Assembly (NCBI GenBank): GCA_002798255.1
Contig: NWQQ01000010.1
Span: forward strand, 1 to 64,000
Direction: 5' to 3'
DNA length: 64,000 nucleotides
From: Lysobacteraceae bacterium NML95-0200
Lineage (GTDB): Bacteria > Pseudomonadota > Gammaproteobacteria > Xanthomonadales > Xanthomonadaceae
A model generated the notes under the pieces. That model saw only the letters and a list, made by a program, of their open reading frames with translations. It did not search any database and was not told the DNA's origin. The position numbers and the translations under genes are program-made. Numbering within the stretch: the stretch's first letter is position 1; each line of letters begins with the position of its first letter. Positions 7,237 through 52,401 of this stretch are shown piece after piece.

Positions 7237-8936
7237 CCTGTATGAAACCGCATCCATACGCTTTTGCCAGCTTCCGCCAGGCCATGGCCTGGGTGCATAC
7301 CTGGCTTGGGCTGGTACTGGGATTTGTACTGATGGTGTGCTTTTTTTTCGGCACGCTGTCGGTATTTGACCGCGAAATCGACCGCTGGGCGGTGCCCGCC
7401 ACCCGCTTTGCCGCTCAGCCCATGCCGGACTTCCAGACCCGGTTATGGCCGGCCTGGCAGTCGCTGTTGCCCAGCGAGGCCGACTATCAGGCCGAAGCGC
7501 CACGGCTGCACGACCCGGCCAAGGGGCCGCTGCCACCACGCAGCGCCCTGCAAGCCGACCAGTTCTGGGCCTACACCACCCACCGCGACCCGGTGGTGCA
7601 AATCGGTGCGCGTTTTGTGTTGCCCAGCGCCCGCGATGATGCCGATGACTATCTCTATGCCAGCGCCCAAATCGACCCGCGCAGCGGCAAGGTGCTGCCC
7701 GATGCTGCACTCAATATCGGCAGCGACTGGTTCTACCCGATGCACTACCACCTCAACTGGGCATGGCTGAACCTGGGCTATTGGCTGGTCGGTCTGGCCG
7801 GGATGGTGATGCTGCTGGCGCTGATTTCCGGGGTAATCCTGCATCGCAAGCTGTTCCGTGAACTGTTTACCTTCCGTCCCGACAAGCAGCGGCTGCGCAG
7901 CCTTCTGGATTTGCACAATCTGAGTGGCGTGGTGGCACTGCCGTTTCATTTGTTTTTCGCCTTTACCGGGGTGCTGATTTTTGCCGCCTGGCTATACCTG
8001 CCGGTCGGCCATAGCCTGTTGCAACCGCTGCATGACCAGCACGCCGTACACGAAGCATCCGCCAGTGGGCTGCCGCACCAGCGCAGCGGCAAGGCGCAAA
8101 CCCATATCGCCCCGGTCACGGCGATGGTGCAGCAGGCCAAACAACGCTGGGCCGAGCGTGGCATGCCCGGCGAAGTTGGCCTGCTGGAGCTGCATCATGT
8201 CGGTGATGCCGATGCCTATATCAGCATCCATCGCGCTGGCAGCGACCGGGTGGCGCTGGTCGGGCAGGCGCTGCATTTCAAGGCCAGCAGCGGCGCATTG
8301 CTGCATGAGGCGCCGCCGCAAAACCCGGTGGCCGCCGTACATGAATACCTCAGCGGCCTGCATTTGCAGCATTTTCGCCATTGGCTGCTGCGCTGGCTGT
8401 ATCTGCTTGGCGGGCTGCTCGGCTGTATCTGCATCGCCACCGGGTTCTTGTTCTTTGTGGAAAAACGCAAGCAGCAGCATGCCCGCCAGGGGCGGCAAGG
8501 TAGCCGGGTGGTGGACGCGCTGGCCATCACCGCGATCACCGGCATGGTCTTGGCTGCGCTGGCAATGCTGGTGATCAACCGGCTGCTGCCAGAAAACTTC
8601 ACGGCGCTGGGCTGGCAAGGCGATGCCTGGCAGAAAGCGGCCTTCTGGGGGCTGTGGCTGGCAGCCGGGCTGCATGCCTGGCTGCGCAGTGCGCCGCTGG
8701 CACAAGGCCGCCCGAACCCGGCCTGGCGCGAGCAGTGCCTGCTCGTGGCCGTATTGGCACTGCTGGCAGTGGCGCTGAACTGGCTGAGCACCGGCGATCA
8801 CCTTCTCAAAACGCTGATAACCGAGCGTTATTGGCCGGTGGCCGGGGTGGACATGGCACTGCTGTTGAGTGCGTTGACGGCATTGTGGACAGCAAGACGG
8901 TTGGGTGAAAGAACCCGCCGTGCGGAGGGCGAGTGA
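7233..8936 (+). CDS. PepSY-associated transmembrane protein (PiuB/PepSY_TM family)
   Basis: The product has 567 residues. The N-terminal helix (VHTWLGLVLGFVLMVCFFFG followed by TLSVFDREIDRW) is the signature of PepSY_TM iron-uptake factors. Further helices include LVGLAGMVMLLALISGVILH, LPFHLFFAFTGVLIFAAWLY, LYLLGGLLGCICIATGFLFF and three C-terminal helices, with periplasmic PepSY-type regions between. Such proteins are thought to act as inner-membrane ferric-siderophore reductases or assistants. Start codons at 7233 or 7242 are both possible; 7233 overlaps the upstream stop and is preferred. It shares the Fur-controlled operon. Confidence 0.85.
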   Translation: MTCMKPHPYAFASFRQAMAWVHTWLGLVLGFVLMVCFFFGTLSVFDREIDRWAVPATRFAAQPMPDFQTRLWPAWQSLLPSEADYQAEAPRLHDPAKGPLPPRSALQADQFWAYTTHRDPVVQIGARFVLPSARDDADDYLYASAQIDPRSGKVLPDAALNIGSDWFYPMHYHLNWAWLNLGYWLVGLAGMVMLLALISGVILHRKLFRELFTFRPDKQRLRSLLDLHNLSGVVALPFHLFFAFTGVLIFAAWLYLPVGHSLLQPLHDQHAVHEASASGLPHQRSGKAQTHIAPVTAMVQQAKQRWAERGMPGEVGLLELHHVGDADAYISIHRAGSDRVALVGQALHFKASSGALLHEAPPQNPVAAVHEYLSGLHLQHFRHWLLRWLYLLGGLLGCICIATGFLFFVEKRKQQHARQGRQGSRVVDALAITAITGMVLAALAMLVINRLLPENFTALGWQGDAWQKAAFWGLWLAAGLHAWLRSAPLAQGRPNPAWREQCLLVAVLALLAVALNWLSTGDHLLKTLITERYWPVAGVDMALLLSALTALWTARRLGERTRRAEGE

Positions 8937-22921: not shown

Positions 22922-23408
22922 GCGTCCGCTTGGCTGCCAGTGGCGGGCGCTGCCCAGTGACTTTCGTCACTGAGTGCAACGGAGTGCTAACCGCACTTGT
23001 GTGTTGCAAGTGTGGTTTGAGCCGGGTGCAAGCCCTGCTATATGACAACGGATTCTTCCGGGAGAATATCTCAATGTGCAGATAGTCGGCGCAGCGAGCT
23101 GCATACCTCCAGCGTCATGTCAAAACGCTGGATTGTTGAGTGCAGTTCCGCATGGTTGGAGAAGCACCGCAGGTTTTGGAAGAGGTGCGAGGGCAAGTTT
23201 AATGCCAGCCTGCAGTTCATCCATCTGCCCTTCCAGGCGGTATTGCTCAAAAAACTTGTGAGCGAGCTCTTGGGGGGCTTGCAGATACCCCCAGTACGGT
23301 TGACCCTGGGGGTTATCCCGGGTCCAGGTCTCTTTTTTAAAATTCAGCTTTCGCGCAGCCTTTGCAATCAACCACAATATACGGCTGAATTCTTCGGGGC
23401 TGCAGGAA
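22922..23408. other. Intergenic region at the left edge of the accessory island
   Basis: These 487 bases separate hutU from the first giant NTPase gene. A short hairpin (GTGAC-TTTC-GTCAC) near 22960 could end hutU. The only coding-like content is the minus-strand frame at 23120-23377. I see no tRNA, no integrase and no direct repeat shared with the right edge at ridA. Confidence 0.5.
23120..23377 (-). CDS. Possible short protein or 3' remnant at the island's left edge
   Basis: A minus-strand frame of 85 codons from a TTG reads like a real protein (WLIAKAARKLNF, KKETWTRDNPQGQPYWGYLQ, HKFFEQYRLEGQMDELQAG) and ends in TGA at 23120. It stays open upstream to about 23416, overlapping the start of the giant gene, but with no ATG. 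It could be a small gene with a TTG start, or the surviving C-terminal part of a gene cut when the island arrived. I do not recognise the family. Confidence 0.35.
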   Translation of the reverse strand: MWLIAKAARKLNFKKETWTRDNPQGQPYWGYLQAPQELAHKFFEQYRLEGQMDELQAGIKLALAPLPKPAVLLQPCGTALNNPAF

Positions 23409-39996: not shown

Positions 39997-41796
39997 TCAA
40001 GCGACCCTGAAGCGTACGCCATCTGTCCCCATGCCGACCCGGATGGTTCGTCCATTGGGCGCTGTTTCAAAAAGATAATCCGATAGCGGCAGGATGAGCA
40101 GGCGCTCCAGATGCTGCGCCAGGCCACGGCCACCGAGCAGCAGCGACTCGGCATCATTGCGGGCGCTGGTGACGATATGCTCGACTACGTCATTGCCAAC
40201 CTGCAAATGGATGCTGTGGCTAGTGGCGCAGCGTGCGGCCACATTGCGCAAGAATTTGCGGGTAACGCCGTGCAGGTCGCGCAGAAAATCAAAGACGATG
40301 ATGTTCTGTGCGCCTCCCAGACGCCCCAGCAATTCTGGGCGGCCAAGACGGTTGACGAATTCATCACGCACTGCATCGCGTACTGCGGCCTGCATGTCGG
40401 CAAACGGGGTGTCATAGTCAAAGCGGGGGCGGCGCACGATATTGCCATCGCTCAAGCGGACTTCTTCGTACATGCCGAGGTTGCTGGTAAACACGATCAT
40501 GCTCTGCCCGAAGTAGGCCGTATGCCCTTGTCCGCTGGTGAGGCGGCCATCGTCCAGCACGCCAAGAAAGGTATCGAGCAGGCGCGGTGCGGCTTTTTCG
40601 ATTTCGTCCATCAGAACCAAACTATTGGGCTTTTTGCGGATGCCTTCGGTCAGCTCGCCGCCGTTGTCATGGCCGATATAGCCGGGAGGGGCGCCAATCA
40701 GGCGCGCCACGGCGTGCTCTTCACGCAGCTCGCCACAGTCAAAGCGCAACAGTTGCTCCTGGCCATACACCACCTCTGACAGTGCCTTGGCCAGTTCGGT
40801 CTTGCCGGTGCCGGTGGGGCCTGCAAAGAAGAAAATGGCGCGCGGGGTCTGCGAGCTGCGCCCTTGATGCGCACCGGACAGGCCGGAGACCGACTGGCGC
40901 AAGCGCGCGAGGACGGAGGAAATCGCCTGGTCTTGCCCCAGAACCCGCTGCTCAAGCTTTTGCGGGGCTTGGCGCACGGCGTTGCGGATGATTTGCCCGG
41001 TCCACGGGCTGTGCGTGGTGCCCAGGGTGAGCGAGACGGCGAGTTCTTCGAAGTCCTGGAGCCGCTGAGGCTTCTGGTCTTGTGCGACTTTCAGCAGGGC
41101 ATCGACCTTGTCCAGCGGCCAGCCTTCGGTGCAGCCGCTGACGGTATTGGCCAGCTCGTCGGCTGAAGCGCCGCAAGCTGGCGCCAGTCTGGGGGTCAGC
41201 AACATGGCATAGGCATGGCGGTCGTCGCGGTCGGCCTCCGGGATGTTGATATGCTTGACACGTGGCGCCTGCGCCAGCGGCTCGGGGAGGTCGTCGGGGC
41301 GGTGGCAGCGCAGAACGATCAGTTTGCCAAGCGGCAGCTCGCGTGCCAGATATTCCAGTAGCTGCAATAGCACAAAGAATTGCTGATGCGGTGCATGCGG
41401 GTCTTCGAACAACAGATGTGCATCAATCACCAAGACCTGCGGCGCATTGACCGGGGCTGCTGGCAACTGGGCAAAGGCATTGAGTACTTCTGCCAGGGGG
41501 CGCCTTGCGGGCTGTCCGGTGGCTTTGGGTAGCTCGCCGGTGGCGACGGGCGGTTTGATGTCGGTATTCAGGCCGAACAGCTCGACCGTGCCGGCGCTGG
41601 GGTCAAAGCGCCATTGGGCGCTGGCATTGACCGAAGTCTGGATCAGTCTTTCCAGGGTGATGGGGCGGTAGCCATTGCCGTTACTACGCGGGGTGATGAA
41701 GCGGTCGTAACAGCGCTCGCCGATCAGGCAAATCACCGAATTGGCGCGGACGGCCAGGCTGATGTTTTTGGCAAGGGTTGCGGTCGTGCTTGTCAT
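39997..41796 (-). CDS. Clp-type AAA+ unfoldase (single active module)
   Basis: From the ATG at 41796 (AAGGA 7 nt upstream) the product has 599 residues. The N-terminal ~230 residues resemble a degenerate NTPase (VLVIDAHLLFEDPH as a Walker B-like strand, no P-loop). The C-terminal half is a ClpA/B D2-like AAA+: GQDQAISSVLARLRQ, Walker A AGPTGTGKTELAKAL near 326, LIGAPPGYIGHDNGGELTE, Walker B LVLMDEIEKA near 398, VFTSNLGM and a C-terminal small domain ending VGMGTDGVRFRVA. No ClpP-binding loop or N-domain is evident. It is the last gene of the minus arm. It probably remodels a protein of this system. Confidence 0.87.
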   Translation of the reverse strand: MTSTTATLAKNISLAVRANSVICLIGERCYDRFITPRSNGNGYRPITLERLIQTSVNASAQWRFDPSAGTVELFGLNTDIKPPVATGELPKATGQPARRPLAEVLNAFAQLPAAPVNAPQVLVIDAHLLFEDPHAPHQQFFVLLQLLEYLARELPLGKLIVLRCHRPDDLPEPLAQAPRVKHINIPEADRDDRHAYAMLLTPRLAPACGASADELANTVSGCTEGWPLDKVDALLKVAQDQKPQRLQDFEELAVSLTLGTTHSPWTGQIIRNAVRQAPQKLEQRVLGQDQAISSVLARLRQSVSGLSGAHQGRSSQTPRAIFFFAGPTGTGKTELAKALSEVVYGQEQLLRFDCGELREEHAVARLIGAPPGYIGHDNGGELTEGIRKKPNSLVLMDEIEKAAPRLLDTFLGVLDDGRLTSGQGHTAYFGQSMIVFTSNLGMYEEVRLSDGNIVRRPRFDYDTPFADMQAAVRDAVRDEFVNRLGRPELLGRLGGAQNIIVFDFLRDLHGVTRKFLRNVAARCATSHSIHLQVGNDVVEHIVTSARNDAESLLLGGRGLAQHLERLLILPLSDYLFETAPNGRTIRVGMGTDGVRFRVA

Positions 41797-41832
41797 GATT
41801 TTCCTTATCAAAGGGTTTGATGGTGAACAACA

Positions 41833-44987: not shown

Positions 44988-45617
44988 TTACATCTCCGTA
45001 TTGTCCATATTGAGGGTGGCGAGCGCGGCAGGCATTTCACGCGAAGGGATGCCGACAAGCAGCAGCTCGCCGGGGCGTTGCTGTTTGATTTGCATTTGAT
45101 GCAAAGGCCAGTCTTGCCAGCCAGCATACAGGCGCTCTGCGCGCGGGGTGAGCAAGTGGACGGTCTGGTTGCTGCTGCCTGCCAGAGAGGTAGGCGGCAG
45201 GTCACGTGCATAAGGCCCTGCAATTACCACATCACATAGGCCAATCAGTTCTGCGTGGTATTTGCCTAGCTTCCGCCAGGTCAAGGCGCTGTACAGCACC
45301 ACTTCGGCCTCGGGAAGAGCCTTACGGAAGCACTTAAGCAATACCACCAGCGCTGCGGACTGGTCGGTCGGCTCGCCGCCGGTGATCGTCAGACCCGCCA
45401 GGCGCGGCAGACGCTTTAGCCACGCCAGCAGTGCATCGACTGTGGTCAGCTCGCCGCCATCGGCATTCCATGTGCGCGGAGAGGTGCAACCCGGGCATTT
45501 GACGTGGCTACACCCTTGTGTGACCAGCAGCGCGCGGTCATTGGTCGCACCGAGCACCCCAGCTTTCAAGCCATAATGTACGGTGTTAAGACGCAGGGTT
45601 GCCGAATTAGCGTTCAT
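44988..45617 (-). CDS. Radical SAM activase-like protein (NrdG/QueE-like small form)
   Basis: From the ATG at 45617 the product has 209 residues. The 4Fe-4S motif is TQGCSHVKCPGC (Cys36, 41, 44), a CX4CX2C spacing instead of the standard CX3CX2C. The SAM-binding GGEP motif is in TITGGEPTDQSA, and the chain has the size of an NrdG-type activating enzyme. It would reductively cleave S-adenosylmethionine to a 5'-deoxyadenosyl radical. There is no anaerobic ribonucleotide reductase nearby, so the target is probably a protein of this cluster. Its start overlaps the upstream gene's end by 11 nt. Confidence 0.8.
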   Translation of the reverse strand: MNANSATLRLNTVHYGLKAGVLGATNDRALLVTQGCSHVKCPGCTSPRTWNADGGELTTVDALLAWLKRLPRLAGLTITGGEPTDQSAALVVLLKCFRKALPEAEVVLYSALTWRKLGKYHAELIGLCDVVIAGPYARDLPPTSLAGSSNQTVHLLTPRAERLYAGWQDWPLHQMQIKQQRPGELLLVGIPSREMPAALATLNMDNTEM

Positions 45618-46242
45618 ACGCCAGATCCTCTTCCCAAGTGGGGAGCTGCAATGTTTCGCGGTGCTCCAGGACCCGCCCATTGCGGGTGAGCAGCGTAAAC
45701 ACCACCTCGCCGTTGTCGGCGGGCAACTCTATGTATCTACACTCGGTCTCATTTTCGATATAGCGTGTCAAAGGACGACGCATGAAGACATCGTCCGCTC
45801 GAATCCTCACGTAAGCCACACTATTTAGCTCGTATTCCAGCCTGACCGGCTGTCCCCACAGGGGATTTTGGGGTTTTATCCGCACACGTATGACTTCGAT
45901 GGCTTCCGGCGAGTTAGTCATAGCTGGAGCTTCAAAGAGCTCGTCAAGGTCTGGAAGCGCCAACAAGGCGGGTAGCATTGCGGTTAATAGGCGCAGTTCC
46001 GGCGTACTGAAATCACTCATTTCACCGCGGACGATGGCTCGTTCTTCCAGCGCCTGCCAACTATCGGCGGAAAGTTTTTGCATAACGCCAGCGCGATCGT
46101 GATCCCCCAAGGCGGCGTAGGCGAGCATAAGGTTCTCGCTGGGCACCTGGCTGGGCTGAAGGCCGCGGTGCGTCACCTGCCTCCCCAAAGCCTGCTGTTT
46201 TTCCACGGCGGCATAGAAGCGATCAATTATGGCTGCAATCAT
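45607..46242 (-). CDS. Unknown island protein (211 residues)
   Basis: The start overlaps the preceding membrane-protein stop (ATGA-type, 46239-46242), and its end overlaps the radical-SAM start. The N-terminal ~100 residues are helical (MIAAIIDRFYAAVEKQQALG, LPALLALPDLDELFEAP). The C-terminal ~100 residues look like a beta-sandwich (VIRVRIKPQNPLWGQPVRLE, VVFTLLTRNGRVLEHRE). No signal or known motif. Confidence 0.68.
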   Translation of the reverse strand: MIAAIIDRFYAAVEKQQALGRQVTHRGLQPSQVPSENLMLAYAALGDHDRAGVMQKLSADSWQALEERAIVRGEMSDFSTPELRLLTAMLPALLALPDLDELFEAPAMTNSPEAIEVIRVRIKPQNPLWGQPVRLEYELNSVAYVRIRADDVFMRRPLTRYIENETECRYIELPADNGEVVFTLLTRNGRVLEHRETLQLPTWEEDLAYER

Positions 46243-47378
46243 GGCTGGCGCCCTCCGTTTTCAGAAGAATCAGCTTTCTCAGGAATAGCTCCCTCTTTTT
46301 TTTCAAAAAAGCGCCGATACGATTCTTCGCGCATAAGGGCGCGGATCGAGCGAGCTCTTTCTTGCCGGCGCAAGGACTCCAGATCGTCAATTTGTTGTAC
46401 CAAACTGAACAGGTTGTCGCCCGGCGCAGATTGCGAACGCCACGCCAACCCTTCTGGCAGGAGAGCGAGTAGCATGTAGAACAACACGATAAAACAAGAG
46501 GTTGCCGTCATTGCAAAGCTGGTGGCGAACATAAGGATCACTAGCACTCCGAATCGCTCCACCGCTCCGCTGTGCATTTTGACGGCCTCTGCTTTGATTT
46601 CACGATCAATGGAAGCGACCTCTTCCTTGGCCTTATCCAGCTCGTCTCTGGAAATCAGAGATGCATAATGGGCAAGCTGAGATTCTTTTGCCTCAAAGTC
46701 AGCTTGATGCTGCTTTGCCTTTTGAATATGCCCGCCATATTTGGGTCCTTTTCCATCGACAGCTTTGATGCCATCCATTTCGTAGCCTTCGGCTTCAACC
46801 TCAGCATTCGATAAGCTCTTTTGATGCTCCGCCTTGAGCGTGGCAATTTCGTTGCTGAGTCTCAACACCTCTGCCTCACGCTGCTGCCAATCATTCAAGG
46901 CACGCTGTAAACCTTGCCTAGCTTGGATCAACCGATCTTTGTAGCGAGCATCATTCTCCAGACTGGCGCGGGTGGCATTCACCCGCTCGAGAAGCATGGC
47001 ATCGATGTCGTCTTTAAGAGGCCCCATGACCGCGAGAAAGGCGCACATGGACATGATGGCGATGATGGTGATGCGGAAATAACGGGCTCGCCTGGTCATT
47101 TGTCGTTCGCGAATAATCTCGCGGGTGTTGCCGACCTCCAAAAGAAACATGATGAATGCACAGGCAGCCGAGAAGGCAAAAGCTGAATGCCAAGGCTTCA
47201 ACAAGAGGTTGATAGAAAATTGATAAACGCCATATTGGAATGCCATGCAGCTAATCAATATCGCAATGCCACGTTGTACCAAATCTTGGGTGGCCTGCGG
47301 GGCGGAAATAAAGATTTCATATTGCTCATCCGTATATCTGAAAATCGTTTGAACAATAAACCGTTGCAACCATTCCAT
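46239..47378 (-). CDS. DUF4407-like membrane protein with coiled coil
   Basis: From the ATG at 47378 (GGAGA 9 nt upstream) the product has 379 residues. Three hydrophobic segments lie at about 37-60, 64-82 and 101-120. A long coiled coil (~130-290: RLIQARQGLQRALNDWQQRE, EIATLKAEHQKSLSNAE) follows, then two more helices (VLVILMFATSFAMTATSCFI, LFYMLLALLPEG) and a charged tail. This is the DUF4407 layout. It probably anchors the system at the inner membrane. It is paralogous to the N-terminal part of the fusion protein upstream (shared YQFSINLLLK / LFSSNLLLK block). Confidence 0.75.
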   Translation of the reverse strand: MEWLQRFIVQTIFRYTDEQYEIFISAPQATQDLVQRGIAILISCMAFQYGVYQFSINLLLKPWHSAFAFSAACAFIMFLLEVGNTREIIRERQMTRRARYFRITIIAIMSMCAFLAVMGPLKDDIDAMLLERVNATRASLENDARYKDRLIQARQGLQRALNDWQQREAEVLRLSNEIATLKAEHQKSLSNAEVEAEGYEMDGIKAVDGKGPKYGGHIQKAKQHQADFEAKESQLAHYASLISRDELDKAKEEVASIDREIKAEAVKMHSGAVERFGVLVILMFATSFAMTATSCFIVLFYMLLALLPEGLAWRSQSAPGDNLFSLVQQIDDLESLRRQERARSIRALMREESYRRFFEKKEGAIPEKADSSENGGRQP

Positions 47379-47419
47379 AATTGATTCTCCATCGACTAAA
47401 AGGTGATTGTGGAACTGTC

Positions 47420-48016
47420 CTTGATGCTGGAGCTCCTTGGGATAGAGCTTGGCAGATTGCGATTGGATACGGCTCGATATTTCAGGGGAAATACGCATTA
47501 GCCGATGCCAAGTTGCACGCAGGTGGGGATGTCCCAGTGTTGTTGGGACACTGTGGCATTGCGCCTTGCGTTCTTCAGGCATGAACAAGCAAGCCCCAAG
47601 GGGGCGCGCGGTTATGACGGCTATCCCTTGGGGCTTGGTTTGTTGGTGGTAGTGTGGGCTAACTCAGGCGGCTTTGCGGGTAGCGGTCAGCTTGATTTCC
47701 ACTTTCCAGCCGGGATGGGCGAGTTTGGCCTCGATGCAGGCGCGCGCCGGGGCGCGGCCGGGAGCGGTCCAGGCATCCCAGACTTGATTCATGCCGTCGT
47801 AGTCAGCGGCCATGTCCGCCAGATAGATGGTGGCTTCAAGAATATGCGCCTTGTCCGAGCCGCAGCGTTCGAGCAGGGCGTCGATCTGTGCCAGCACGCT
47901 GCGGGTTTGCGCCTGAATATCAGCGCTGGCGTCTTCCGGCACCTGCCCGCCCAGAAAAACGAAACCATGGGCAACAGTGGCATCGCTGTAGCGCGGCTCG
48001 GGGTCGATGTAGTCAA
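47420..48016. repeat. Tandem-duplicated unit, copy 1: ridA coding part, terminator and spacer
   Basis: This stretch is closely similar to 48877-49463 at an offset of about 1446 bp. It covers ridA codons 2 to stop, the downstream hairpin and the spacer before the next DUF4407-like gene. Differences are mainly single substitutions and one indel. Confidence 0.9.
47590..47637 (-). terminator. Terminator-like hairpin after the RidA fusion gene
   Basis: CAAGCCCCAAGGG pairs with CCCTTGGGGCTTG across a 22-nt loop, 27 nt past the stop of the fusion gene. The sequence is repeated after the true ridA. Confidence 0.7.
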
Positions 48017-48830
48017 TCTCGGGGAGATGATGGATGTGACTATTAAGCTGGGCTGGATGCCTTGTTGAGTACAGCATCCAAGGGAGTGCGCTGATGACCA
48101 GATAGATCATTGCAGTAACAAGCATCACCAGAATGTTTGAGGAGCTACTGGAGAATTGGCGCATCATCAATTCCAGCCTTCCAGGGATAGTGGCACTGAT
48201 GCGGCTGGCCTCTCGTTCAATTCCATGCTGGATTTCATCAAGATGTTGTTGGGCAACCTGGATTTTTGTTGCTGCCCCATCGATTTGGGCATCCAGAAGT
48301 TTGACCCTTTGTACATGCTCTTCATATATCGCGCCGCGACCTGTCAGTTCAATGCTCTCCAGTTTGAAAAGCAGTTGATGGCGTTCGGCGTGCAAATCAA
48401 ATAGCTCGTCTTCGGCCTCTTCAATGGCTCGCTCGGCTGTTGTCAGGCGTGAATAATAGTGAGGTCTAGTTTTCAATTGCAGCTCAGCCAGCTGTTTGAA
48501 GTCCAGTGCCTGTGTAGTGGCGACTATTTTCAGCGGTTGAATGGCAACAAAAAACGCAGAGGCCAGCATGAGCATGGTAATGGCAGTGAGAAGCCAGCGG
48601 GTATGCTTGCTTGTACGTCTGTTGCGCGAGAGCTTGTAGAAGTTGACCATCTCAAGTATTGCCAGCATAAGGGCGCAGATGGTGGCAAACCCCAAGCTCC
48701 AGTTAAAGGATTTCAACAACAGATTTGATGAAAACAGAAATGCACCGTAAGCAAATGCCAGGCCGGTAATACATACAACGAAGCTGTGAAGTACCAGCTC
48801 CAGGGGGAATTTCTGAATAAGCTTTTTCAT
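47664..48830 (-). CDS. DUF4407-like membrane protein fused to a complete RidA domain
   Basis: From the ATG at 48830 (GGGAG upstream) the product has 388 residues. Residues 1-270 are a DUF4407-like region: helices at VVCITGLAFAYGAFLFSSNL, ICALMLAILEMVNF and WLLTAITMLMLASAFFVA, a coiled coil, then LVMLVTAMIYLVISALPWML. At about residue 272 it joins RidA exactly at its second codon (EIDYIDPEPRYSDATVAHGF) and continues to the RidA end with the Arg-containing ARACIEAKLAHPGWKVEIKL. The RidA part is nearly identical to the separate ridA at 49110. RidA hydrolyses reactive enamine/imine intermediates; whether the fused domain is active is unknown. Confidence 0.88.
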   Translation of the reverse strand: MKKLIQKFPLELVLHSFVVCITGLAFAYGAFLFSSNLLLKSFNWSLGFATICALMLAILEMVNFYKLSRNRRTSKHTRWLLTAITMLMLASAFFVAIQPLKIVATTQALDFKQLAELQLKTRPHYYSRLTTAERAIEEAEDELFDLHAERHQLLFKLESIELTGRGAIYEEHVQRVKLLDAQIDGAATKIQVAQQHLDEIQHGIEREASRISATIPGRLELMMRQFSSSSSNILVMLVTAMIYLVISALPWMLYSTRHPAQLNSHIHHLPEIDYIDPEPRYSDATVAHGFVFLGGQVPEDASADIQAQTRSVLAQIDALLERCGSDKAHILEATIYLADMAADYDGMNQVWDAWTAPGRAPARACIEAKLAHPGWKVEIKLTATRKAA

Positions 48831-48876
48831 GTTGTGCTCCCACAATTGTGACGAGGTGGCCGGTGGTATCCCTGAT

Positions 48877-49463
48877 ATTGCAGCTCCTTGGAGGAGCTTT
48901 TCATATTGCTGGCGCGGCGTTGGTCACAAAACAGGGGAAATGCCTTGGCTGATGTCAAGTTGCACGCAGGCGGGGATATCCCAGTGTTGTTGGAGCACTG
49001 TGGCGTTGTGTCGTGTGTTCTTCAGGCATGAACAAGCAAGCCCCAAGGGGGGCGCGGTTATGATGGCCATCCCTTGGGGCTTGGTTTGTTGGTGGTAGTG
49101 TGGGCTAACTCAGGTGGCTTTGCGGGTAGCCGTCAGCTTGATTTCCACTTTCCAGCCGGGGTGGGCGAGTTTGGCCTCGATACAGGCGCGTGCCGGGGCG
49201 CGGCCGGGAGCAGTCCAGGCATCCCAGACTTGATTCATGCCGTCGTAGTCGGCGGCCATGTCCGCCAGATAGATGGTGGCTTCGAGAATATGCGCCTTGT
49301 CCGAGCCGCAGCGTTCGAGCAGGGCGTCGATCTGTGCCAGCACGCTGCGGGTTTGCGCCTGAATATCAGCGCTGGCGTCTTCCGGCACCTGTCCGCCGAG
49401 AAAAATCAGGCCATGGGCAATCGTGGCATCGCTATAGCGCGGTTCGGGGTCGATGTAATCAAT
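48877..49463. repeat. Tandem-duplicated unit, copy 2: ridA coding part, terminator and spacer
   Basis: Partner of 47420-48016. This copy contains the free-standing ridA with its own start codon and is presumably the ancestral position. Confidence 0.9.
49037..49083 (-). terminator. Terminator-like hairpin after ridA
   Basis: The same CAAGCCCC.../...GGGGCTTG stem as at 47590-47637, 27 nt beyond the ridA stop. Confidence 0.7.
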
Positions 49464-49466
49464 CAT
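49110..49466 (-). CDS. ridA: RidA family reactive-intermediate deaminase
   Basis: The product has 118 residues, typical for the YjgF/YER057c/UK114 fold. It has HGLIFLGGQVPEDASADIQA, the QTRSVLAQIDALLERCGS helix, LADMAADYDGMNQVWDAW, and the C-terminal Arg/Glu block PARACIEAKLAHPGWKVEIK. It hydrolyses 2-aminoacrylate-like enamines. It lies 50 nt downstream of the M2 peptidase gene on the same strand. A second, nearly identical copy is fused to a membrane protein just downstream. Confidence 0.93.
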   Translation of the reverse strand: MIDYIDPEPRYSDATIAHGLIFLGGQVPEDASADIQAQTRSVLAQIDALLERCGSDKAHILEATIYLADMAADYDGMNQVWDAWTAPGRAPARACIEAKLAHPGWKVEIKLTATRKAT

Positions 49467-49516
49467 GGGTTTCTCCAAAGAGGCAGGCTCCCATGTGCGG
49501 GAGCCTGCTGTTTGCA

Positions 49517-51415
49517 TCAGTTCGGGGCTTGCCAGCCGCATTGCTGGCCCTGGTTTTGCTCCTTCAGCCAGGTTTGCAGCGGGGCGAAGTATTCCAGTAC
49601 CGCGCTGGCATCCATTTGCTGGCCGCCAGTCAGTTCTTGCAGGGTGTTTTGCCAGGGTTGGCTGGCGCCCTTGGAGAGCATTGCCCAGTAACGCTGGCCG
49701 GCATCTTTGTTGCCATAGAAGCTGCACTGGTACAGCGGGCCGTTATGGCCGGCGGTATCGCATAGCGACTTGTAGAACTGGAATTGCAGGATGTGCGAGA
49801 GAAAGTAGCGCAGGTACGGGGTATTGCCGGGAACGTGATATTTGGCGCCGGCATCGAAGTATTCCTCGCCGCGCGGGTTGACCGGCGCCACGCCCTGATA
49901 CTTGGCCTTGAGATTCCACCAGGCGGCGTTGTACTGGCCGGGCTGGATGGTGCCGTCGAATACGCCCCAGCGCCAGCGGTCAATCATCAGGCCAAACGGC
50001 AGGAAGGCGACTTTTGCCAGCGCCATGCGCATCTGTGAGTTGATGAGCGCCTGTTGGCTTTGCGACTGCTTGCCGACAAGGCCGATGGATTGCAGGTAGT
50101 CCGGGGTCATCGCCAGCACGATAACATCACCGATGGCCTCGTGGAAGCCGTCATGGGCGCCGGCCTGGAACAGTGCCGGTTGCACGTTGTAGGCCAGGTC
50201 GTAATAGATATGTCCCAGTTCGTGATAGATGGTGGTGAAGTCTTCCTCGTTGGGCTTGATGCACATCTTGGTGCGCACATCGCCCTGCATGTTCATGTCC
50301 CAGGCGCTGGCATGGCAGACCACATCGCGGTCGCGCGGCTTGATGAACTGGCTGTTCTGCCAATAGCTTTCCGGCAGTTTGGGGAAGCCAATCGAAGTGT
50401 AGAAATCTTCGGCGCGGCGGGTCATGTCCTGTGCAATCCTGAGTCTGGCCGCCTGCTCGATGTCATCGGCGCTGCGTCCGGCGGGCCTGGCCTGTTCGGC
50501 CTTCAGCGCGGCCTGGTACTGCGCTTCCAGGGTGCTGCTGATGTCGAGGCTGCCTGCGCCGGGGTAGGGTTCCAGCACATCCCAGAGATTGCCCCAGTCC
50601 TGCTGCCACATATTGCCCATCAGGTGCGCGGGCAACAGGTCGCCTGCGACGCTGCCCTGGCCGGGGTACTTCGTTTCCAGCTTGTTGCGGGCATAGCAGT
50701 GCAGCTCCTCGTATAGCGGTTTGACCTGTGCCCACAGGCGGTCGGTTTCGGCGGCGATTTCTGCGGGCTTCATGTCATAGCCCGAGCGCCATAGCTCACC
50801 GACATTGGTAAAACCAAGGTCGTTTGCGCCCTGGTTGGCCAGCTCGACAAATCGCTGGTAATCCTTGCGCATCGGTGCGGCCACGCCATGCCAGCCCTGC
50901 CAGGCATCCAGCTGCGCGGTGTAGTCACGGCTTCCGCGCAATACCTCTTCCAACTCGCCCAGTTGCCGGCAGGTTTTGGCCTCACCTTCGCCCTGGCAAT
51001 AGCTGCCCGCACCGTAGGCGCCCTCCAGGCGGGTGGCAATCTGGGTCAGCTCCGAGAGTGCGGCCGGGTCTTTGGGCGGCGGCATGGTGGCCGAAAGTTT
51101 CAGCAGGGCAATGGTGCGCGCACTTTCGGCAGACATCGGTTTGCCTTCGTACTGCTTGGCTGCCTCAATCCACTGATTCAAACGGGTCAGCCAGTGCTCA
51201 TTGCTCTTGGCGGCCAGCATCTGCGTGTCTTCACCAATGTAAGTGGATGCCAGCCACTGCGGTACGGTGATTTCCGGATACATCGCCTTCATCTCGGCAT
51301 TGATGCGGGCGACGAACTGGTCGGCGTTTTCACGGGGCGCCTTTTGTGCGGCCAGTGTGCCGGGAACAAGGCTGGTGGCAATGGCAAGGGAAAGCAGCGC
51401 GTGGCGAAGTTTCAT
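49517..51415 (-). CDS. M2 family peptidyl-dipeptidase (ACE-like)
   Basis: The product has 632 residues with a signal peptide (LRHALLSLAIATSLVPGTLA-AQ). The zinc site is IYHELGHIYYD, with the third ligand Glu in GFHEAIGDVIVLA. Other M2 blocks include DFYTSIGFPKLPESYW, KMCIKPNEEDF, NPRGEEYFDAGAKYHVP and YLRYFLSHILQFQFYKSLC. It should act in the periplasm, removing C-terminal dipeptides as in the Xanthomonas ACE homologue. ridA follows in the same direction. Confidence 0.95.
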   Translation of the reverse strand: MKLRHALLSLAIATSLVPGTLAAQKAPRENADQFVARINAEMKAMYPEITVPQWLASTYIGEDTQMLAAKSNEHWLTRLNQWIEAAKQYEGKPMSAESARTIALLKLSATMPPPKDPAALSELTQIATRLEGAYGAGSYCQGEGEAKTCRQLGELEEVLRGSRDYTAQLDAWQGWHGVAAPMRKDYQRFVELANQGANDLGFTNVGELWRSGYDMKPAEIAAETDRLWAQVKPLYEELHCYARNKLETKYPGQGSVAGDLLPAHLMGNMWQQDWGNLWDVLEPYPGAGSLDISSTLEAQYQAALKAEQARPAGRSADDIEQAARLRIAQDMTRRAEDFYTSIGFPKLPESYWQNSQFIKPRDRDVVCHASAWDMNMQGDVRTKMCIKPNEEDFTTIYHELGHIYYDLAYNVQPALFQAGAHDGFHEAIGDVIVLAMTPDYLQSIGLVGKQSQSQQALINSQMRMALAKVAFLPFGLMIDRWRWGVFDGTIQPGQYNAAWWNLKAKYQGVAPVNPRGEEYFDAGAKYHVPGNTPYLRYFLSHILQFQFYKSLCDTAGHNGPLYQCSFYGNKDAGQRYWAMLSKGASQPWQNTLQELTGGQQMDASAVLEYFAPLQTWLKEQNQGQQCGWQAPN

Positions 51416-51513
51416 GGCAAGGCTCGTGGTGGAAAGTCCGCTAGTTTAGGAGGCAGAACATGGGTTTGCATACCGAAGTACGGCTACACTGCGGACAGTT
51501 TTTTCAAGTATTG

Positions 51514-52401
51514 ATGATGACATCTATTCATAAAGGCGTATTTCTTGGACTTGCCGCCTATGCGGCGTTTTCTTTCAGTGATGCCTTCATCAAACTGTTG
51601 AAAGGCGGCGTGCCGCTATGGCAGCTGATGTTCATGGGCGCGTTGCTGGGGCTCCTGGCGCTGCCCTGGGTCAAGCAGCCCGGCGAGCACTGGCTAGACT
51701 TGTTGCGTCCGCGTCTGCCCGGAATATGGCTGGCGCGCATGCTGTTTGCCGCCATCAATGCCTTTGGTGCCTTGCTTGCCTTCACCCATTTGCCGATGGC
51801 CGAGGCGTTTGCGCTGATTTTCCTGATGCCGATTTTCGTCACCCTGCTTTCGGTGCTGGTGCTCAAAGAGCAGGTGGGCTGGCGGCGCTGGCTGGCGGTG
51901 CTGGCCGGTTTTGCCGGGGTGCTGGTGGTATTGCGCCCTGGCTTTCGTGAACTGCATTGGGGGCATGCAGGCGCGGTTGCCTGCGGGCTGGCCGGGGCGG
52001 TCGGTGTGGTTCTGGTGCGACTGGCGGGGTGCCGCGAGCATCGTCTGACCCTGTATGCCACCCCTTTGCTCGGCAACCTGCTGATTGCCGGGATGCTGAT
52101 GCTGCCGCAGATGATGCTGCCCACTGCGCAGCAATGGGGCTATGTGCTGGGCTACGGATTGCTGGCAGCGCTTGGTACCGTGCTGCTGCTCTATGCCACG
52201 CTGGCGACTGAGGTGAACCATGTCGCGCCCACCCAATACAGCCAGATGCTCTGGGCGGTGCTGCTGGGCGCCTGGTGGTTCGATGATCGAGTGGATGCCC
52301 TGACCTGGCTGGGTATTGCCATGATTATCGCTGCGGGTCTGTTTACGCTTGTCCGCGAGCGGCATGTCGGCAGCTGGTGGCATCGTATAAAGCCATCGTA
52401 A
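51514..52401 (+). CDS. EamA/DMT-family transporter
   Basis: From the ATG at 51514 the product has 295 residues with ten predicted helices in two EamA repeats (GVFLGLAAYAAFSFSDAFIK, GALLAFTHLPMAEAFALIFL, VLAGFAGVLVVLRPGF; then MLWAVLLGAWWFDDRVDALT and LGIAMIIAAGLFTLV). It resembles RhaT/YdcZ-type drug/metabolite exporters. A second ATG lies at 51517. It is divergent from the M2 peptidase gene. Substrate unknown. Confidence 0.88.
   Translation: MMTSIHKGVFLGLAAYAAFSFSDAFIKLLKGGVPLWQLMFMGALLGLLALPWVKQPGEHWLDLLRPRLPGIWLARMLFAAINAFGALLAFTHLPMAEAFALIFLMPIFVTLLSVLVLKEQVGWRRWLAVLAGFAGVLVVLRPGFRELHWGHAGAVACGLAGAVGVVLVRLAGCREHRLTLYATPLLGNLLIAGMLMLPQMMLPTAQQWGYVLGYGLLAALGTVLLLYATLATEVNHVAPTQYSQMLWAVLLGAWWFDDRVDALTWLGIAMIIAAGLFTLVRERHVGSWWHRIKPS

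Follow-up and report, generated by a model that had tools for sequence, protein, structure and literature searches.

A DUF4407-like membrane protein joined in frame to a Rid domain in a Lysobacteraceae genome, and a tentative account of its origin

How a Rid domain came to continue a DUF4407-like membrane protein in one reading frame is the question raised by a locus of Lysobacteraceae bacterium NML95-0200, lying in a window of 64,000 nucleotides (contig NWQQ01000010.1, positions 1 to 64,000). The original prediction answered it with a recent tandem duplication of a unit made of a DUF4407 gene and ridA. The intact fusion is real, is found in one genome and is built from known parts. The original interpretation is partly supported: the repeat, the fusion, the open frame and the replaced tail hold, but comparison of the copies with each other and with relatives points to a history that differs from the simple unit duplication first proposed. 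The locus is of interest as a well-preserved case in which recombination has apparently built a new protein architecture, with source and recipient genes, their junction and an imported allele that informs the order of events all within about 5 kb.

The fused gene and its distribution

All genes of the locus lie on the minus strand, where an M2 peptidase gene (49517–51415; Peptidase_M2, 669.7 bits) stands upstream of a free ridA-like gene (49110–49466; 118 aa; Ribonuc_L-PSP, 97.7 bits). These are followed by a spacer with a terminator-like hairpin (48831–49109, hairpin 49040–49053) that forms the leader of the fused gene (47664–48830), by a second copy of spacer and hairpin (47379–47663, hairpin 47593–47605) and by gene B, of which that copy is the leader. 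B (46239–47378, ATG start at 47378) encodes a stand-alone protein of 379 aa that scores above the Pfam cut-off for DUF4407 (PF14362; 37.5 bits, cut-off 31.3). No match at gathering score was obtained in an Rfam search of 46000–52000, and no sigma-70-like promoter in 47380–49520, which includes both spacers (shuffled sequences give a mean of 1.2).

The membrane part of the fusion, A (48018–48830, residues 1–271), reads without a stop into codon 2 of ridA (47664–48017, residues 272–388, 117 aa), forming a single frame of 388 aa with a predicted mass of 43.6 kDa, close to the 43 kDa expected from the sequence beforehand. At the junction (48012–48022), sequence comparison places codon 271 of A (GAG) beside codon 2 of ridA (ATT), so that the fusion reads GAG ATT where the free gene, at 49466, reads ATG ATT. 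Likeness to a ridA leader ends at this point, the fusion agreeing with the leader of the relative G006 at 6/12 bases and then at 8/30. Residues 275–384 match Ribonuc_L-PSP (PF01042; E 7.6e-27, 94.2 bits, cut-off 27.3), and the domain sits where B continues past the region that aligns with A; the usual tail of the DUF4407-like protein has thus been replaced, as anticipated. Among fusion codons 241–300, ATG, GTG or TTG occurs only at 241, 252 and 297, which makes a separate full Rid product from the fused copy unlikely. The free and fused Rid proteins differ at 4/117 residues, in agreement with the near-identity originally noted, while G+C content is 48% in A against 63% in the fused ridA. The name ridA is used loosely here, given that both copies score below the cut-off of TIGR00004, the archetypal RidA family (55.7 bits for the free copy and 52.1 for the fusion, cut-off 106.25); they are presumably Rid2/YoaB-like.

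Sought in relatives, A was found only in its own genome, being present in one of 17 congeneric genomes (0/16 of the other congeners) and in one of 398 genomes of the phylum. This Rid protein occurs at E 1e-25 in 95 of 227 genomes of the family, with two copies only in this genome, and DUF4407 is detected at E 0.001 in 21/198 family genomes, passing the cut-off only here. In named genomes, 34 confirmed loci match the fusion from residue 256 or later only, that is, in its Rid part, in a scan by short exact peptide patterns that may miss distant relatives of A. A candidate origin of A as a gene of mobile DNA was rejected, since viral contigs, plasmids and phages gave no match to it; B likewise has no match in plasmids, and neither protein matches PHROGs at E 0.01. 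No paper on a fusion of Rid with a membrane protein came up in a term search of the open-licence literature.

Repeat structure and mixed ancestry of the two ridA copies

The direct repeat of about 0.6 kb comprises ridA, the terminator-like hairpin and the spacer, and its previously described offset of about 1446 bp, spacer included, is borne out. It is made up of a block of 300 nt at 96% (47595–47894 and 49041–49340, spacing 1446), a block of 110 nt at 88% (47495–47604 and 48942–49051, spacing 1447) and an end piece of 23 nt at 83% (47418–47440 and 48869–48891). In successive windows of 40 columns, beginning at the junction and running to the starts of A and B, the identical columns number 37 and 32 at the beginning of ridA, 38–40 across ridA and the hairpin (38–39 over the end of ridA and the hairpin), then 33 and 35 and finally, with gaps, 24, 28 and 22. 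When the two leaders are compared alone, one in 2000 shuffles scores equally high. A dispersed repeat was considered as the source of the spacer and rejected, full copies being found only at its own locus among 17 congeneric genomes: the search returned the two local copies and three short, weak matches (in G015, G014 and G004, E 0.02–0.09).

A mis-assembly, or a contig mixing two strains, might be suspected in a draft genome of 46 contigs with a repeat that exceeds short-read length, yet it is very improbable here, as the copies differ at 18/336 compared ridA sites and in the spacer, contamination is 0.14 and the junction sits inside an open frame. Furthermore, a simple duplicate made in assembly is hard to reconcile with copies that are not identical and carry different alleles at their 5' ends.

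The free and fused genes agree at 254/261 bases over codons 27–113 but at only 64/75 bases over codons 2–26. The high identity noted originally is therefore not uniform, and it conceals the mosaic described below. In its simple and recent form, duplication of a unit of DUF4407 gene and ridA is rejected on the divergence of the cargo. Proteins A and B are 23% identical (64/282, E 1e-15, with A residues 11–251 aligned), and set against the near-identity of codons 27–113 this indicates that the split between the cargo genes is far older than that between the ridA copies. The fall in spacer identity towards the gene starts likewise points to a conserved flank with divergent cargo and not to one whole-unit duplication. 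A high-identity repeat need not, then, amount to a simple tandem duplication.

Comparison with relatives suggests that the two copies have partly different ancestries. This Rid protein is present at an identity of at least 83% in four of 17 congeneric genomes (G000, G001, G006 and G010), the other 13 giving weak matches. In codons 2–26, the free copy agrees with G001 at 75/75 bases and the fused copy with G006 at 72/75. In codons 27–113, both copies are of a third sequence type, with 235–236/261 bases shared with G001 and 229–230/261 with G006, which themselves agree at 238/261. The breakpoint between the free and fused copies falls at codon 26 and is as strong in 8/5000 permutations; the single-pair tests are weak (219/5000 for the free copy with G001, 432/5000 for the fused copy with G006).

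The first 26 codons of the free gene belong to a tract of about 2.1 kb that also takes in the M2 gene (49384–51494), ends within the free ridA near codon 26 and is 98% identical to G001 against a background of 87%. Over 49391–51395 the identity is 98.1%, and the flanks of the tract stand at 88.6% and 89.5%. A nearby 4-kb control is 87% identical to G001, 89% to G006 and 82% to G010, and the 986-bp flank past M2 reaches 93% to G006 as compared with 89% in the control, so identity varies along the locus. Since the free copy has its first 26 codons within this tract, the two ridA 5' ends appear to derive from different lineages: the M2 gene and the first codons of the free ridA have the appearance of DNA imported from a G001-like source, while the 5' end of the fused copy is G006-like and native-looking. 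The case for a mosaic rests on combining the ridA breakpoint with the M2 tract. In its own right, a tract so close to G001 amid flanks of 89% is a sign of homologous exchange between species within the genus. The 3' ends of ridA also differ among species, and the G001 DNA past the ridA stop (L021, about 8300–8600) resembles what we take to be the start of an IS3-type transposase.

Possible routes to the fusion

The origin that is tentatively favoured is the stacking of a second M2–ridA–cargo haplotype onto the resident one by homology-facilitated illegitimate recombination. The site next to ridA would carry alternative cargo of the DUF4407 family behind a common flank of ridA, hairpin and leader, with M2–ridA–leader–B as the resident state. 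An incoming haplotype, M2–ridA–leader–A, would have been taken up and placed in front of the resident one, with homologous sequences pairing on the M2/ridA side and an illegitimate in-frame join at the opposite end. The join would have linked codon 271 of A to codon 2 of the resident ridA, at the cost of the tail of A and of the ridA start codon; the resident ridA would have become the C-terminal domain of A, and the incoming ridA the present free enzyme.

Several observations are in keeping with stacking. The cargo genes are far more divergent (23% protein identity) than the main part of ridA (254/261 bases), and the spacer declines gradually towards the gene starts. The foreign-looking piece lies on the free side and the native-looking one on the fused side, as indicated by the G001 and G006 matches and the M2 tract. 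The junction is sharp and one-sided, with homology on one side only, although other routes give a similar pattern. The Rid domain has also been kept, as judged from the base differences between the copies (7/8 synonymous), from model confidence (pLDDT 76–94) and from its likeness to NMB1025 (TM 0.91). Against stacking, the 3' part of the free ridA and its spacer are like the fused copy and not like G001, which implies a haplotype that was already mosaic or was converted later. Moreover, the mosaic is explained equally well if the free copy received an import following a duplication unrelated to it, the permutation tests on single pairs are weak, and identity varies along the locus anyway (93% to G006 past M2). 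No strain carrying only A or only B at the site turned up in a search of one genome per species. Competence, as it might be signalled by DNA uptake sequences, receives no support, the presumed Neisseria-type variants giving one match and the presumed Pasteurellaceae-type motifs two in about 136 kb.

The main rival to stacking is local copying, which we consider unlikely. It supposes that A and B, with leaders homologous to each other, stood side by side beforehand, and that a copy of the ridA–hairpin–leader segment upstream of A entered the gap between A and B, anchored in the leader and joined illegitimately at the tail of A, the M2 gene and the free ridA start being replaced later by a G001-like allele. 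The one-sided junction, the alignable leaders of A and B and an import tract that stands by itself all agree with it; the anchor, however, would be a poorly matching leader (22–28 of 40 columns), and two separate events would be required.

Less probable again, and third in order, is an old duplication of a ridA–leader–DUF4407 unit, along the lines of the original prediction, after which A and B diverged and gene conversion kept the ridA copies alike. The shared order of the two units, the homology of A and B and the peak of near-identity in mid-ridA would all be accommodated, but a fusion as old as the 23% divergence should recur, and A is seen in 1/17 congeners and 1/398 phylum genomes, with two Rid copies in 1/95 of the family genomes that have this Rid protein.

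Whatever its origin, the Rid domain could be a functionless by-product, an in-frame passenger that is yet to be lost, and this is a possibility to be taken seriously, considering that a join is in frame by chance one time in three, that the fusion is seen in one genome and that a free Rid copy is still there. Retention of the conserved arginine speaks against it, and so does, weakly given the few changes on the fused branch, the excess of synonymous differences between the copies: over codons 27–118, seven of the eight base differences are synonymous (2.5 expected, P 0.0018). The changes assignable to the fused copy are three only (codons 25, 72 and 102), all synonymous, and with so few of them selection on the fusion itself is no more than suggested; gene conversion could also keep the fused copy intact.

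Protein features, island context and likeness to known systems

A has no DUF4407 match in Pfam up to E 0.1, and its tie to that family runs only through B. Hydropathy gives four segments in each protein, at positions that do not all match, those of A being 8–26, 41–59, 79–97 and 233–251. Positive charges in A number three at the N-terminus, six in loop 60–78 and one in loop 27–40, a distribution that by the positive-inside pattern suggests a fusion with both ends in the cytoplasm and a long helical stretch (98–232) outside. In a monomeric structure model, the Rid region has a pLDDT of 76–94 by blocks over residues 281–388, with an overall pTM of 0.35; the membrane part is of low to middling confidence, and no fold is claimed for A. 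The best Foldseek match is NMB1025 (3kjj; TM by target 0.91, 57% identity), and the best 50 of 859 matches are all Rid-fold proteins. R363 of the fusion is invariant among 18 aligned sequences and, by its position, would be the arginine needed for imine hydrolysis, corresponding to Arg105 of E. coli TdcF, given in the portion of PMC4433059 on this residue as the conserved arginine of imine-hydrolysing Rid proteins. Rid proteins are typically trimers according to the same portion, and a trimer formed by the fusion, its active sites shared between subunits as in the Rid family, would bring together three membrane parts or draw in free Rid subunits. If made, the fusion would place Rid subunits, on their own or mixed with free Rid, at the inner membrane, and would thus be a natural membrane-tethered Rid protein.

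A and B lie in an island whose putative extent, 22919–49109, follows from the limits of synteny with congeners, which reaches to about 22918 from the left and to the ridA stop from the right. Its genes encode two proteins with FGE-sulfatase domains, an FtsH/M41-like protease, a ClpB-like ATPase, an NrdG-like radical-SAM protein and several proteins with no Pfam match. In the segment 40000–47370, DNA matches occur in 15/16 other congeners and cover only the ATPase motif region (about 40473–40849) and a few short pieces. In G006 and G010, ridA is followed by a convergent gene (in G006 a major-facilitator transporter by Pfam) and then by a large gene, which in G006 encodes glycine dehydrogenase. 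Among 398 genomes of the phylum, a 551-aa island protein matches only weakly, three times apart from itself (E 3e-4 to 5e-4). Relatives of the ClpB-like ATPase at E 1e-60 are present in six of these 398 genomes in addition to its own; the radical-SAM protein is also present at four of the six loci, and neither A nor B has a match at any of the six at E 1e-3, two of these loci being short contigs.

Some further observations concern the island as such. The ClpB-like ATPase (39997–41811) and the radical-SAM protein (44988–45680) recur together in four other genomes (L090, L091, L092 and L093), and in three of them (L090, L092 and L093) the pair has as its neighbour a protein that begins with a CPxC-type motif. 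Just inside the left edge, 23071–23272 is a dispersed repeat of about 200 bp that recurs at 71–76% identity in another five contigs of this genome and is also present in G001 and G006. The island, whose tested parts are missing from congeners, recalls NTP-dependent conflict systems, with no vWA match. It is doubtful, though conceivable, that the flank of ridA serves a multi-gene, conflict-type island as a site for exchanging cargo, with different DUF4407 membrane proteins taking turns behind ridA, and that stacking recruited Rid, a housekeeping enzyme of metabolite repair, as a cytoplasmic effector or trimerising module of the membrane component of the island.

Of the known systems with which the locus can be compared, the FtsH ternary conflict system consists, in the section of PMC7159879 describing it, of a MoxR ATPase, a vWA partner and a further protein in which the FtsH-type ATPase domain occurs twice. 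The FtsH/M41 protein of the island resembles the last of these in having a weaker second AAA region, but the other island ATPase is ClpB-like (with a weak AAA_5 match as well), and no vWA match was obtained among the island proteins scanned. Like the Rid/YjgF/UK114 family (PF01042), the fusion has a whole Rid domain and what by position would be the conserved arginine (R363); unlike it, the domain is attached to a membrane protein, while the multi-domain Rid proteins named in the available part of PMC4433059 are tandem Rid repeats. With respect to DUF4407 (PF14362), B passes the cut-off and A aligns with B, whereas A carries a Rid domain in place of the tail of B. PD-T4-2 protein B (PADLOC PDLC04030) seems to end in a Rid-like stretch as well, since positions 182–287 of its 294-position profile match fusion residues 280–379 (E 2e-14), but the profile has no match to the membrane part, and the corresponding entry of PMC10952713 lists PD-T4-2 with DUF262 and HEPN domains. 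For Vibrio type VI effector-immunity arrays, stacking by homology-facilitated illegitimate recombination has been proposed (PMC5361080, in its account of these arrays). As portrayed in that account, those modules share with the stacking proposed here a conserved upstream flank, divergent cargo and a displaced resident copy kept downstream; they differ in that immunity genes pile up and intermediates are known, whereas here a flanking metabolic gene has been doubled and fused, with no intermediates seen.
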